Shown one piece after another: positions 4,386-47,743 of a stretch of DNA of 57,320 nucleotides. The translations under genes and the position numbers were made by a program. Positions within the stretch are counted from its first letter, which is position 1. The number at the start of each line of letters is the position of its first letter. This DNA comes from a virus: IMG/VR virus record IMGVR_UViG_3300042691_028406, positions 1 through 57,320 of that record. One strand, written 5' to 3'. The notes under the pieces were generated by a model. The model worked only from the letters and a program-made list of their open reading frames with translations. It did no database searches and was not told the DNA's origin.

Positions 4386-4979
4386 ATGAATAGTGATTTT
4401 TTATTTATAGAGGACGTTGTTAGCGATGTATTCGAGAGGAATAAGGGATGGGCTAATGAGCGATCTAAAAAAATGGAGTTTGTTGAGCCTCGTCAGGTAG
4501 CTCATTGGGTGCTGTATTACTTTACGAAACATCAACTAAGAAACATAGCTTTTTATTTTGGGAGAAGATCACACGATGTTGTTATTCACTCCGTGAGAAT
4601 AGTTAACGACAGGTTGCAGGTTGACTACTCTTTTGCCTGTAAGATAAGGACTATTATTGATCATATCGAATCCAAAGGATACAGTCTGTTATACAAATAC
4701 GGACGTGTTATCCTAGAGGAAAGACAACAAACGCTTCGTTTTGTTACTAACTATGCTAAAAAACCAAGGCAAAGAAGTGTTGATTTAGTTGTCACCCCTA
4801 ATCTTGTTCAAAGGTTAATAAAAGAACGAAATATATTTTTGTCGGGGTACGATGTGTTGAAGAAAAAGAAAAGACGCATTGAACGAACAACAGACTTAGA
4901 CAAGGTTATTACACTGGCAAAAGAAATATCAGCCATTGAAATAAAAATGAAAGAACGTGCTTTACAGCACATAAAATAA
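4386..4979 (+). CDS. DnaA domain IV-like DNA-binding protein
   Basis: 197 aa. Residues 35-90 resemble the DNA-binding domain IV of the replication initiator DnaA: EPRQVAHW, then LRNIAFYFGRRSHDVVIHSV, then a helix with DYSFACKI. In DnaA the corresponding segment is the GRDHTTV signature of the helix-turn-helix. There is no AAA+ ATPase domain. The C-terminal 100 residues are basic and helical. A free-standing domain of this kind could bind the phage origin or compete with host DnaA at DnaA boxes. No cluster of DnaA boxes was seen in the window. Confidence 0.62.
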   Translation: MNSDFLFIEDVVSDVFERNKGWANERSKKMEFVEPRQVAHWVLYYFTKHQLRNIAFYFGRRSHDVVIHSVRIVNDRLQVDYSFACKIRTIIDHIESKGYSLLYKYGRVILEERQQTLRFVTNYAKKPRQRSVDLVVTPNLVQRLIKERNIFLSGYDVLKKKKRRIERTTDLDKVITLAKEISAIEIKMKERALQHIK

Positions 4980-4980
4980 T

Positions 4981-5011
4981 TTTGTTTGTGTTTGTTTGTT
5001 GTGTATATTTG
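4981..5011 (+). promoter_or_regulatory. Bacteroidetes-type promoter (TTTG-N19-TATATTTG)
   Basis: TTTG at 4981-4984 and TATATTTG at 5004-5011, 19 bp apart, followed by C and by the AACTTTAAAA leader. It sits directly after the DnaA-like gene and fixes the start of the next gene at 5034. Confidence 0.75.
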
Positions 5012-5518: not shown

Positions 5519-5690
5519 AATGGGGTTGCGTTTGCAGAACAACAACTAAAAAACACGTTATTTTGTTTTGTTTAATGCAACCAAGTCCAAATATATACAA
5601 TAAACAAGAAATAAACAACTTTTGTTGTTTTGTGGGTGTTTGTACTTAAAAACAAAAATAATTGATCGTAGTGTCTAAAAACCAAGTAAA

Positions 5691-5828
5691 ATGAAAGATA
5701 AATACACAAAAGAACAGGTTGTCGAGTTTTGTAGATACATTCTGAGAACTGAATACGCAGAAGACCTTGATGAAGAAACAACAACAGAATTGTTTGATTT
5801 GTGGATAGAAAGTAAGAAGCCGGATTAA
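5691..5828 (+). CDS. Unknown small acidic protein, 45 aa
   Basis: ATG at 5691, 45 residues, strongly acidic (DLDEETTTELFDLW). The stop lies inside the bidirectional terminator that separates it from the convergent fibre operon. The gap 5519-5690 holds no other gene that I can support. Confidence 0.5.
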   Translation: MKDKYTKEQVVEFCRYILRTEYAEDLDEETTTELFDLWIESKKPD

Positions 5829-13118: not shown

Positions 13119-13155
13119 TGTATCTATTCATTGGTGTCATTGCGTATATTAAATT

Positions 13156-13164
13156 GTTAGTGGC
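13156..13164 (-). repeat. Orphan attC-like half site (R'' box)
   Basis: On the - strand GCCACTAAC is the exact complement of GTTAGTGGC at the start of the same cassette (13371-13379). No partner arm follows before the gene at 13118, so the last attC-like site seems truncated. Confidence 0.5.
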
Positions 13165-13168
13165 AAGG

Positions 13169-13345
13169 CTAAGAAGCGATACCGACTAACCAAATTGGAC
13201 AAAATATAAGCCAGTACAAAAATCTTTCTTGTAAACTAACAGCTAAATTGTCTTTTCCTATCGTTTTACAATCATTCCTCCAAATCAGATAGAATGGTAT
13301 GAAAAGAACGATTTGCAATAATACACATATCAATATTTTGTCCAT
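13169..13345 (-). CDS. Two-TM small membrane protein in cassette D
   Basis: 58 aa from the ATG at 13345. Two hydrophobic spans (ILICVLLQIVLFIPFYLIW near residues 4-22, and FLYWLIFCPIWLVGI near the end) flank a short basic loop. The stop lies five bases before the orphan half site. Position between attC-like sites makes it the only gene of one cassette. Function unknown. Confidence 0.5.
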   Translation of the reverse strand: MDKILICVLLQIVLFIPFYLIWRNDCKTIGKDNLAVSLQERFLYWLIFCPIWLVGIAS

Positions 13346-13370
13346 TTTGTTTCAATTTGTGAAAAGCCCA

Positions 13371-13467
13371 GCCACTAACAGCAAGTAGGCAATAGTGCTG
13401 AAACATTCTCGGTTAATATTTTAATTTATAGTAAGCACCATCGCCTACTTGCAAACCGTTATAGGGT
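13371..13467 (-). repeat. attC-like recombination site 4
   Basis: Reading the - strand: R'' ACCCTATAAC (13467-13458), a long arm ending GCAAGTAGGC, a variable loop, the complementary arm GCCTACTTGC, then R' GTTAGTGGC (13379-13371). The arms pair over about 18 positions with mismatches. The site follows the stop of the gene at 13470 by three bases, as cassettes do. Length 97 bp. Confidence 0.68.
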
Positions 13468-13469
13468 AT

Positions 13470-13658
13470 TTAAGAAGACAGCACAACTACTTCTTCATCT
13501 AATCCCCACATATTAGGCTGTATTTTTTTGAAATCGGTTATATAAACATTTTCAATAAAACTATTAAGTTCTGATTCATGCTGGTCGTGGTCTTTAAATG
13601 CTACAATTGCCTTTTTCGGCATTTTTTGTAATTTTTTAATTAATTGTTCGACAGTCAT
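13470..13658 (-). CDS. Unknown small protein in cassette A
   Basis: 62 aa from the ATG at 13658; upstream in-frame codons to 13718 would need a TTG start and would run through the attC-like arm. It begins MTVEQLIKKLQKMP, which looks like a small helical protein, and ends with an acidic beta segment. Flanked by GTTATAGGGT and ACCCTATAAC. No family recognised. Confidence 0.55.
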   Translation of the reverse strand: MTVEQLIKKLQKMPKKAIVAFKDHDQHESELNSFIENVYITDFKKIQPNMWGLDEEVVVLSS

Positions 13659-13674
13659 ATATATTAAATAAAAC

Positions 13675-13814
13675 ACCCTATAACCCTGTATAAATTCAAG
13701 TTGGGGCTTTGTTAGCAACTTGAAACAGTTGTGTTACTTATGTCGTTTTGTGCAGGTTGACATGGCATCACACTTTAATCCCAACCTGAAATTTATACAG
13801 ATACCGTTAGCCGT
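13675..13814 (-). repeat. attC-like recombination site 3
   Basis: On the - strand: R'' ACGGCTAAC (13814-13806), arm ATCTGTATAAATTTCAGG ending in GGTTGGG, loop, complementary arm CCCAACTTG then AATTTATACAG, R' GTTATAGGGT (13684-13675). Roughly 20 paired positions with a one-base bulge, which resembles the extrahelical base of attC. Length 140 bp. Confidence 0.75.
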
Positions 13815-14113
13815 CAGTTTAAACGTTCAACCTCGAAAGTTTCGGTTTCTAAAACAGATGAAGGGTTAAACTGAGTTATAAAATAAACATGAATAGCTCT
13901 ACTCATTTGTTCGTAGCTTAATTCATAATTGAATATGCTTTTAGCTTCATCAAAAACACGTTTACAAATGGCTTCGTTACTATTTCTAAAGTCATTAATT
14001 GACATACTTTGTTTACAATTAATCGTTTTAGAATAGATACATAATGTCGAATGAGCAAAATATATCATTAATCGGTACATTTCGCTTAAATCTGTTTGGC
14101 ATACTTGTTTCAT
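13814..14113 (-). CDS. Unknown protein in cassette B
   Basis: 99 aa. Helical, Cys-containing N-terminal half, Glu-rich end. Its TGA stop overlaps the R'' box of attC-like site 3, and about 40 bp separate the GTTAGCCG boundary from its ATG, which is the usual cassette arrangement. No recognised family, no promoter seen. Confidence 0.55.
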   Translation of the reverse strand: MKQVCQTDLSEMYRLMIYFAHSTLCIYSKTINCKQSMSINDFRNSNEAICKRVFDEAKSIFNYELSYEQMSRAIHVYFITQFNPSSVLETETFEVERLN

Positions 14114-14153
14114 ATTATTTTGATTTAATGTTATTTACTAAAATAAAACCGAA

Positions 14154-14289
14154 CGGCTAACCAACGGTATAAAACAGTTGGGCATCCGTGGTTATTCGAG
14201 CGTATCATTACGTTTCAAATGTTGTGGCATTTTGATAAGTCAGTACTTCGCAGTCCCAGCCGATTTCATACCGTCAGGCGTTATGCGCA
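14154..14289 (-). repeat. attC-like recombination site 2
   Basis: On the - strand: R'' TGCGCATAAC (14289-14280), arm GACGGTATGAAATCGG plus CTGGG, loop, complementary arm GCCCAACTG then TTTTATACCGT, R' GTTAGCCG (14161-14154). CGGTAT/ATACCG and GGG/CCC arms pair with small bulges. Length 136 bp. Confidence 0.72.
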
Positions 14290-14291
14290 AA

Positions 14292-14669
14292 CTAATCCGC
14301 ATCATCGACAAATACCAAGTCGGACACTAGATTTGCGTTTTGAAAAATATTTCCACAGACTAAGTGTAAATTTCCAATCGTATGAGCAACATCAAATCGT
14401 TTATGATTCCATTTTCCATAATGCTCTGTACTGCCATAGTCGGTAATAAATTTACCATTAAATTTTCTAACAACACAATATTCTCCAGTATCTACATTTT
14501 TAAAAATATCGCCTTCAAATACCATTGTATCTTCAATATCGTCCATCCCTACCCATTCCATTACATATCCCTTTCCTAAAAATGGGCTGCCTTTATATGT
14601 CCATACTCCAGACATTTTATTTCTCTTTTCATTCCAAAATCTGAATCTGAAATCAGAAAGTCTGCGCAT
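14292..14669 (-). CDS. YopX-like protein in cassette C
   Basis: 125 aa from the ATG at 14669; an in-frame ATG at 14711 adds 14 residues that would be encoded by the preceding attC-like arm. The YopX-family layout is visible: FRFRFWNEKRNKM at the start, GKGYVMEWVGMDD, then VFEGDIFKN, a short beta hairpin, and HTIGNLH near the end. YopX-like proteins are common in phages and mobile DNA with unclear function. The start codon ATG is itself part of the boundary GTTATGCGC, so translation may depend on whatever lies upstream. Confidence 0.68.
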   Translation of the reverse strand: MRRLSDFRFRFWNEKRNKMSGVWTYKGSPFLGKGYVMEWVGMDDIEDTMVFEGDIFKNVDTGEYCVVRKFNGKFITDYGSTEHYGKWNHKRFDVAHTIGNLHLVCGNIFQNANLVSDLVFVDDAD

Positions 14670-14796
14670 AACAATATGTTTATGCAATTGTGGGTTTTGT
14701 GGTGTATTCATCTGTATTACTGTTTATTAAGTTATTACTATTTTGAAAGTGCAGTGGTTTCTAGTCCACAACTGCACAAACACCAACCGTTATGAC
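14664..14796 (-). repeat. attC-like recombination site 1
   Basis: On the - strand: R'' GTCATAAC (14796-14789), arm TGTTTGTGCAGTTGTGG, loop, complementary arm CCACAATTGCATAAACA, R' GTTATGCGC (14672-14664). The arms pair over 17 positions with two G-T type pairs. No gene with a matching GTTATGAC start is seen upstream, so its original cassette body is missing. Length 133 bp. Confidence 0.7.
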
Positions 14797-47310: not shown

Positions 47311-47670
47311 TTTAGTTAACTTACCTTGCTTTTGTTAGATTCTGATGTTATAAGAAGACACACTTATCCCCTAAGGGGAAAATGGGTCTTCTCTTGCTTC
47401 CGTTGAGTTCTTCAGTCACGCAAAGACACCGCTACTTACGCACGTAAAGCGGTCTATCGGCATATACAGAATGTGCGTTCTGTGATGGCAGTGATCCGAT
47501 AAATCAGCAATAATAACTTTAGCCCTTAGCTAAATTTTTATTCCTGTCCCTCACTTTGGTGTTATTGCCAACCCCCTTCTTTTTTAGAGATTCCTTCTAC
47601 ACCTTAGAGCCTATGGGTATGAAACGAGTTTTCAGACGTATAGTTCCCCATAGAGATTATAAATAATCTG
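47311..47670 (-). ncRNA. Large structured non-coding RNA downstream of tRNA-Thr
   Basis: About 360 nt with no ORF but many nested stems: CTATGGG/CCCATAG (47653-47611), TTTAGC/GCTAAA (47534-47518), TATCGG/CCGATA (47501-47455) enclosing ACAGAA/TTCTGT, ACCGCT/AGCGGT (47453-47428) with inner TTAC/GTAA, and AGAAGAC/GTCTTCT (47392-47353) enclosing TCCCC/GGGGA. It is read from the same strand as the tRNA. Its tRNA-linked phage context recalls the large RNAs GOLLD and ROOL, but no sequence match can be claimed. Confidence 0.6.
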
Positions 47671-47743
47671 AGCTTGATTACGGGATCGAACCGCAGACCT
47701 TCTGAGTACAAAACAGACGCTCTACCGACTGAGCTAATCAAGC
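47671..47743 (-). tRNA. tRNA-Thr (anticodon TGT)
   Basis: 73 nt in full cloverleaf order: acceptor GCTTGAT/ATCAAGC (7/7), T8 A9, D arm GCTC-AGTCGGTA-GAGC, anticodon stem TCTG/CAGA (a T-T mismatch at 31-39), loop TTTGTAC giving anticodon TGT with A37, five-base variable loop, T arm TGCGG-TTCGATC-CCGTA. Discriminator T, no CCA. It reads ACA codons. It lies directly after a terminator-like hairpin and before the structured RNA. Confidence 0.88.

Follow-up and report, generated by a model that had tools for sequence, protein, structure and literature searches.

An attI-anchored array of integron-type cassettes in a Bacteroidota phage, probably mobilised in trans by a host recombinase lacking the IntI-specific domain

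The window analysed here, 57,320 nucleotides of the IMG/VR virus record IMGVR_UViG_3300042691_028406, belongs to a Bacteroidota phage and contains four integron-type cassettes in an attI-anchored array; a host recombinase without the IntI-specific domain probably moves them in trans. As judged from sequence, the four palindromes of the array are real recombination sites of the integron type. Phage integron arrays have been regarded as strays from bacterial integrons. Phages appear instead to run integrons of their own, whose recombinase would escape current integron finders. More broadly, phages and their Bacteroidota hosts may well share an undescribed integron class built on a compact recombinase without the IntI domain, of which phages have their own version with its own attI and a private set of cassettes whose genes face attI. 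Phages without a recombinase would keep a host-type attI and use the host enzyme to trade genes, many of them for DNA modification.

Organisation of the array

Read on the + strand, the array runs from 13156 to 14791 and consists of four cassettes that start from a bare GTT (13156) and end with a complete site (14791). The start is marked by a putative attI-like core, TTGCGTATATTAAATT|GTT (13141–13158, + strand), in which the GTT at 13156 is the first of the array (GTT0), and a stem scan detected no stem upstream of it (best score 5.2). All four palindromic sites claimed in a first-pass annotation are present, with AAC-to-GTT spans of 13377–13460, 13682–13808, 14159–14282 and 14670–14791. They are 84–127 nt long and combine constant GTT/AAC boxes with asymmetric spacers, so that each reads on the + strand as AAC, 1–3 nt, stem, loop, stem, 5 nt and GTT.

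Cassette D (13156–13460, + strand) has the start box GTTAGTGGC, the R'' box GCCACTAAC at 13371–13379 and a stem score of 14.0; in its attC-type site 1 (13377–13460, + strand) the spacers beside AAC and GTT are 1 and 5 nt. Its gene (13169–13345, − strand), the stop of which lies 13 nt from the cassette's own GTT, encodes a small hydrophobic protein of 58 aa that has no match in Pfam and no known function. Cassette C (13458–13808, + strand; start box GTTATAGGG, R'' CCCTATAAC, stem score 15.0) ends in attC-type site 2 (13682–13808, + strand), with spacers of 1 and 5 nt, and carries a gene (13470–13658, − strand) for a 62-aa protein belonging to PHROG 6161, a phage protein of unknown function (E = 9.1e-10). 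Cassette B (13806–14282, + strand; start box GTTAGCCGT, R'' ACGGCTAAC, stem score 11.7) ends in attC-type site 3 (14159–14282, + strand), with spacers of 2 and 5 nt, and Pfam and PHROG give no clear family for its 99-aa product (13814–14113, − strand). Cassette A (14280–14791, + strand; start box GTTATGCGC, R'' GCGCATAAC, stem score 10.9) ends in attC-type site 4 (14670–14791, + strand), with spacers of 3 and 5 nt. Its gene (14292–14615, − strand) encodes a YopX-family protein of 107 aa from the ATG at 14615; a further ATG lies upstream at 14669, inside the R'' box, and a scan from that start matches Pfam PF09643 (E = 4.6e-6). The cargo of the array is hence one protein of the YopX family, one of PHROG 6161 and two of unknown kind. 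For the last GTT box, GTTATGACA, at the end of the array, no partner was found over the 1.7 kb downstream. All of these genes point toward attI, in the same direction as the neighbouring phage genes. Rfam has no match in the array; its sole match in the window is a tRNA, and a tRNA-Thr gene (anticodon tgt) is located at 47670–47743.

Reality of the sites

The two ends of every cassette pair exactly within that cassette (GTTAGTGGC with GCCACTAAC, GTTATAGGGT with ACCCTATAAC, GTTAGCCGT with ACGGCTAAC and GTTATGCGCA with TGCGCATAAC), which bears out in all four an earlier claim that each cassette start is complementary to its own R'' box. The complementarity between GTT start box and own R'' box extends across 9–10 nt; counted as consecutive bases beyond GTT/AAC, with a maximum of 7 scored, it amounts to 6, 7, 6 and 7 in cassettes D, C, B and A. 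The window accordingly contains at least two palindromic attC-type sites together with small ORFs, G|TT boundaries and own-end complementarity. By eye, the R boxes are CACTAAC, CTATAAC, GGCTAAC and GCATAAC on one side and GTTATAG, GTTAGCC, GTTATGC and GTTATGA on the other; only AAC and GTT are invariant, and the full consensus RYYYAAC/GTTRRRY does not hold in the window.

Sites were detected with a custom stem scanner and shuffle controls, the scanner being preferred to a covariance model because the loop lengths of the sites differ widely. Against dinucleotide shuffles of the window, two real stems score at least 14 (0 shuffled) and three score at least 13 (0.17 shuffled), while three sites are linked by cassette-end complementarity in the window and none in its shuffles. 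Ordinary terminators, or hairpins of another kind between phage genes, would suit the long stems of the palindromes and their position among small co-directional genes, but this explanation is effectively ruled out. The palindromes have fixed GTT/AAC boxes and asymmetric spacers, complementary cassette ends never arise in shuffles (201 linked site pairs in the 1.44 Mb of 154 array-pattern viral loci plus the window, as against 0 in 2.89 Mb of shuffled sequence), and two related phage arrays, L207 and L274, differ by exact cassette units, a difference that holds unless it stems from assembly errors. Elsewhere in the window, at 4882–5000 and 5614–5720, there are two further AAC...GTT hairpins with scores of 12–13; the asymmetry of their spacers is reversed, no cassettes are linked to them, and they are possibly terminators.

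Polarity of the array and inversion of its genes

Since only the + strand reading yields four complete cassettes, the genes of the window lie backwards relative to the sites, and all four are inverted with respect to site polarity. The palindromes had been described as each following a small gene on the − strand. Read in gene direction, they do not: the site at 14670–14791 has no preceding gene, and gene D (13169–13345) is followed only by the bare, stemless box GCCACTAAC. A reading in which gene direction sets array direction was rejected, for one site then becomes an orphan and one cassette is left without a stem, both in the window and in the Flavobacterium phage hattifnatt9-1, and it is contradicted by the counts of bare GTT at viral array ends. 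A bare GTT partner stands at the polarity start in 39 of the 49 viral array ends with room for it; a partner AAC box stands at the far end in 10 of 47.

In the window, and nearly always in the phage arrays, the attC-type site does not lie at the 3' side of the gene. Among distinct phage cassette ORFs of at least 70 aa, 139 are inverted and 7 codirectional, as against 3 inverted and 34 along the polarity among distinct chromosomal cassette ORFs (Fisher p = 1e-26); counted by cassette, genes follow the polarity in 38 of 42 from Bacteroidota chromosomal arrays. The window array, then, is no fragment of an ordinary bacterial integron: inversion of the genes is what nearly all phage arrays show and the chromosomal ones do not, and the opposite facing of phage genes suggests that the cassette pools of phages and hosts are largely separate. 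A similar site class also occurs in linked arrays on contigs of Marinimicrobia, Dehalococcoidia and Omnitrophota (L039, L043 and L066), and in L043 and L066 the genes have the normal direction.

Distribution among phages

Arrays of the window's type are common in Bacteroidota phages. The exact pattern of the site class matches 33 IMG/VR contigs and 36 genome contigs, a second site pattern has at least 120 matches, and the stem scanner finds 66 arrays in viral loci; the viral contigs are partly redundant, so that these counts are not all independent events. The isolated phage hattifnatt9-1 has the same layout as the window, with eight linked sites in the locus examined (L002) and a ninth in the full genome, and Polaribacter phage P12002L (L167, 38087–38935) has a methyltransferase cassette of the same layout, again with the gene inverted. 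The presence of such an array in a lytic-looking phage, thought unusual at first, is consequently nothing of the kind: there are dozens in Bacteroidota phages, and integrase-less arrays (CALINs) in virulent phages are already reported by Qi et al. (2023, Front Microbiol, PMC9892861).

A distant DNA search of phage genomes returned just two short matches, both of them homologous sites, and window site 1 has sequence in common with site 3 of hattifnatt9-1. No relatives of the window phage were found among the viral contigs with the cassette B protein, a tail-side neighbour protein and the terminase as queries. No site of the window's class was found in the actinobacterial phage TJE1. A huge uncultured phage (LR756500.1, 462 kb) has a cassette-like unit (L003, 2076–3130) whose site matches window site 3 over 49 nt with 92% identity. 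The leader GGGCTTNTCACAAATTNAAAC, between R'' and start codon, is common to cassette D (13320–13378) and a hattifnatt9-1 cassette (L002, 2990–3040) and may be an expression signal.

Gain, loss and exchange of cassettes

The first-pass annotation proposed comparing relatives of the window phage for gain or loss at exact GTT boundaries. In the wider phage family such a change is seen between L207 (IMGVR_UViG_3300031963_002624) and L274 (IMGVR_UViG_3300032092_000370), related phage arrays from different metagenomes that are 100% identical in their shared stretches. L274 has two cassettes more. One of these sits exactly at the bare GTT0, the first or attI position, where the flank AGCGAGTA|GTTATAAGC is replaced by AGCGAGTA|GTTAGTGGC...G|TTATAAGC; the other lies inside the array, and where it is absent L207 has a chimeric site. 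Arrays with no other relationship also have single cassettes in common, bounded by GTT and R'' (L036/L174, 92%; L008/L282, 97%). Such comparisons of sequence point to recombination of the cassettes, and in relatives of the window phage the predicted empty site is ...GCGTATATTAAATTG|TTATGACAACAAAAC.

Homologous recombination at repeated palindromes, with no site-specific recombinase, could likewise spread arrays through mosaic phage genomes, in which sites share sequence between phages (window site 1 and hattifnatt9-1 site 3 among them). It is a very improbable explanation, as the junctions fall at G|TT with different sites on either side, the L274 insertion took place at a bare, stemless GTT, and arrays lie at a fixed distance from recombinase genes.

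Recombinases of phages

Many array-bearing Bacteroidota phages encode their own tyrosine recombinase of about 277 aa. With three phage recombinases as tblastn queries, 10 array-bearing viral loci were found to carry this compact enzyme adjoining the array. A profile built from the phage recombinases gave 296 viral loci, of which 80 were kept and 66 had enough upstream sequence; cassettes lie directly upstream with the expected polarity in 56 of these 66, as compared with 1, 0 and 2 of 66 in the three control directions. The distance from GTT0 to the recombinase start codon is 51–54 nt in 30 loci and 68 nt in 7, and GTT0 is often preceded by TACATATA in the recombinase-bearing phages. Upstream of these recombinases, 129 ORFs are inverted and 1 is not. 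The catalytic residues R, K, H, R, H and Y are conserved. In a tree the phage recombinases form a single clade with a modest support of 0.70, on which no weight is placed.

Recombinases of Bacteroidota chromosomes

In several Bacteroidota genomes a tyrosine recombinase related to the integron-integrase model, though below its cut-off, is found at contig ends. Homologues (E ≤ 1e-60) occur in 91 of the 197 sampled Bacteroidia genomes, and, if the proposal is right, integrons would be present in a large share of Bacteroidota, where previous surveys record hardly any; the one complete integron that IntegronFinder 2.0 names for Bacteroidetes proper is that of Salinibacter ruber M1 (PMC9024848). Where the chromosomal context is complete, the recombinase stop is followed after 90–131 nt by a bare GTT0 and an array that agrees with those of phages in site type and polarity (six arrays), with the recombinase gene transcribed toward attI. 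A cassette was detectable in 10 of the 20 contexts fetched, some contigs stopping just past the gene. Large arrays beside a recombinase without the IntI patch are present in Bacteroidota chromosomes at L144, L154, L155, L157, L160, L162 and others, and a conserved chromosomal attI, TNGCGNNTATAAACNA|GTT, lies about 100 nt after the recombinase stop.

The IntI-specific domain, located near patch III and regarded as a defining feature of IntI (PMC9668308), is present in Vibrio IntIA but in none of the 32 recombinases, from chromosomes and phages, that were aligned with it. The chromosomal enzymes keep the tyrosine-recombinase residues. Both groups fall below the cut-off of TIGR02249, and their best family match is the XerA-like 'tyrosine recombinase/integron integrase' of NCBIfam (NF040815), which covers Xer-type enzymes generically; its cut-off of 220 bits is passed by the chromosomal query (225) and not by the phage enzymes (189–198). 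The solved structures closest by sequence are XerA-type enzymes, followed by Vibrio IntI4. The IntI family model was rejected as evidence by itself, every genome having matched it, controls included; given this lack of specificity, the analysis relied on linkage to arrays.

The attI of the window and the enzyme that acts there

No recombinase was found in the window by tblastn with the three phage enzymes that had matched 10 other loci, and there is no intI gene adjacent to the array as in a complete classical integron; the description 'without integrase' is therefore true of this 57-kb record, which may be a fragment. A weight matrix trained solely on 23 chromosomal Bacteroidota attI sequences places the window GTT0 at rank 6 among the 2638 GTTs of the window, its score of 2.9 being weaker than those of the best phage examples (12–14). 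With the same matrix, the start box ranks first in the locus in 12 of 42 recombinase-less phage arrays and within the top 5% in 24, as against 2 of 12 loci that have their own recombinase or are close copies of such loci. Because the window has no recombinase and its attI resembles the chromosomal type, action of a host enzyme in trans is most likely. On the simplest reading, the phage has retained an attI of host type and depends on the host recombinase; this is the least certain step, since the chromosomal matrix does not fit hattifnatt9-1 or several further arrays without a recombinase, which may use another enzyme.

The array could instead have been built by a phage-encoded recombinase of the same family, now lost or missing from what may be a fragmentary record, rather than by the host chromosomal enzyme. 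In favour of this are the 10 array-bearing viral loci with an adjoining recombinase and the same inverted cassettes at most phage recombinase loci (56 of 66). It is nevertheless unlikely, given that the GTT0 flank of the window is of the chromosomal attI type and lacks the TACATATA motif, and that the complete phage hattifnatt9-1 also has an array, with one partial recombinase match in its genome that falls inside the terminase gene.

Capture by an integron integrase acting in trans had been proposed at the outset. The action in trans is likely to stand, whereas the enzyme concerned is probably not a classical IntI. A plain CALIN of ordinary bacterial integron cassettes, served by classical IntI in trans, gains some credence from the recombination of phage-borne attC sites by IntI1, including one of two tested from phage P12002L (Qi et al. 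2023, PMC9892861). It is improbable all the same, for complete classical integrons are very rare in Bacteroidetes (IntegronFinder 2.0, PMC9024848), the recombinases linked to the arrays lack the IntI domain, and phage cassette genes are inverted relative to the polarity while chromosomal ones are not.

With a host recombinase in trans, the mechanism would be as follows. On the + strand an attI-like site, TTGCGTATATTAAATT|GTT, precedes cassettes built as G|TT-gene-AAC-stem-loop-G|TT, and the pairing ends of each (GTTAGTGGC and GCCACTAAC in cassette D) would mark it as having once been a circle. Recombination at G|TT would let cassettes enter and leave, new ones joining at attI, and the sites would presumably serve as substrates when folded as single strands. 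The enzyme would be a tyrosine recombinase of an integron-like family without the IntI-specific domain, encoded in some relatives by the phage, about 50 nt from attI, and in Bacteroidota by the chromosome, about 100 nt before the host attI. For the window array the host enzyme, acting in trans, would be the most likely source.

Relation to known integrons

Classical integrons, which consist of IntI, attI and attC (class 1, Vibrio), have in common with the present arrays circular cassettes, G|TT boundaries, folded palindromic sites, anchoring at attI and insertion at the first position. Here, in contrast, the recombinase lacks the IntI-specific domain, the R boxes are reduced to the GTT/AAC core and the phage genes are inverted. 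The chromosomal integrons of Treponema (Wu et al. 2013, PMC3607928) resemble those of Bacteroidota in the direction of the integrase gene, which reads toward attI and the cassettes; the Treponema enzyme is treated as an integron integrase, whereas the Bacteroidota enzymes are XerA-like and without the IntI patch. In the available part of Qi et al. 2023 (PMC9892861), the phage CALINs are like the window array in being integrase-less attC arrays of small genes and methyltransferases in lytic phages; what sets the present system apart is the patch-less phage recombinase, the phage attI beside a native recombinase, the consistent inversion of genes and the connection with a chromosomal recombinase of Bacteroidota, none of which that part describes. 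In the literature outside preprints and most subscription journals, no prior description was found of patch-less recombinases linked to such arrays, of phage-native attI platforms or of inverted phage cassettes, and the integron-like system of the window is widespread and apparently undescribed.

Among the largest proteins encoded by cassettes elsewhere are DNA methylases, a member of the Mom family, a D12 adenine methylase and a protein with a PAPS-reductase domain. This cargo would be consistent with protection from restriction, and the richness of the phage pool in DNA-modification genes (methylases, Mom) suggests that phages trade counter-defence genes. If so, phages would have a dedicated route for swapping genes, and it becomes possible to test directly whether folded attC sites are substrates for a recombinase that lacks the IntI patch. 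Phage P12002L, already used in IntI1 assays and carrying an inverted cassette of the same layout, is a ready experimental control.
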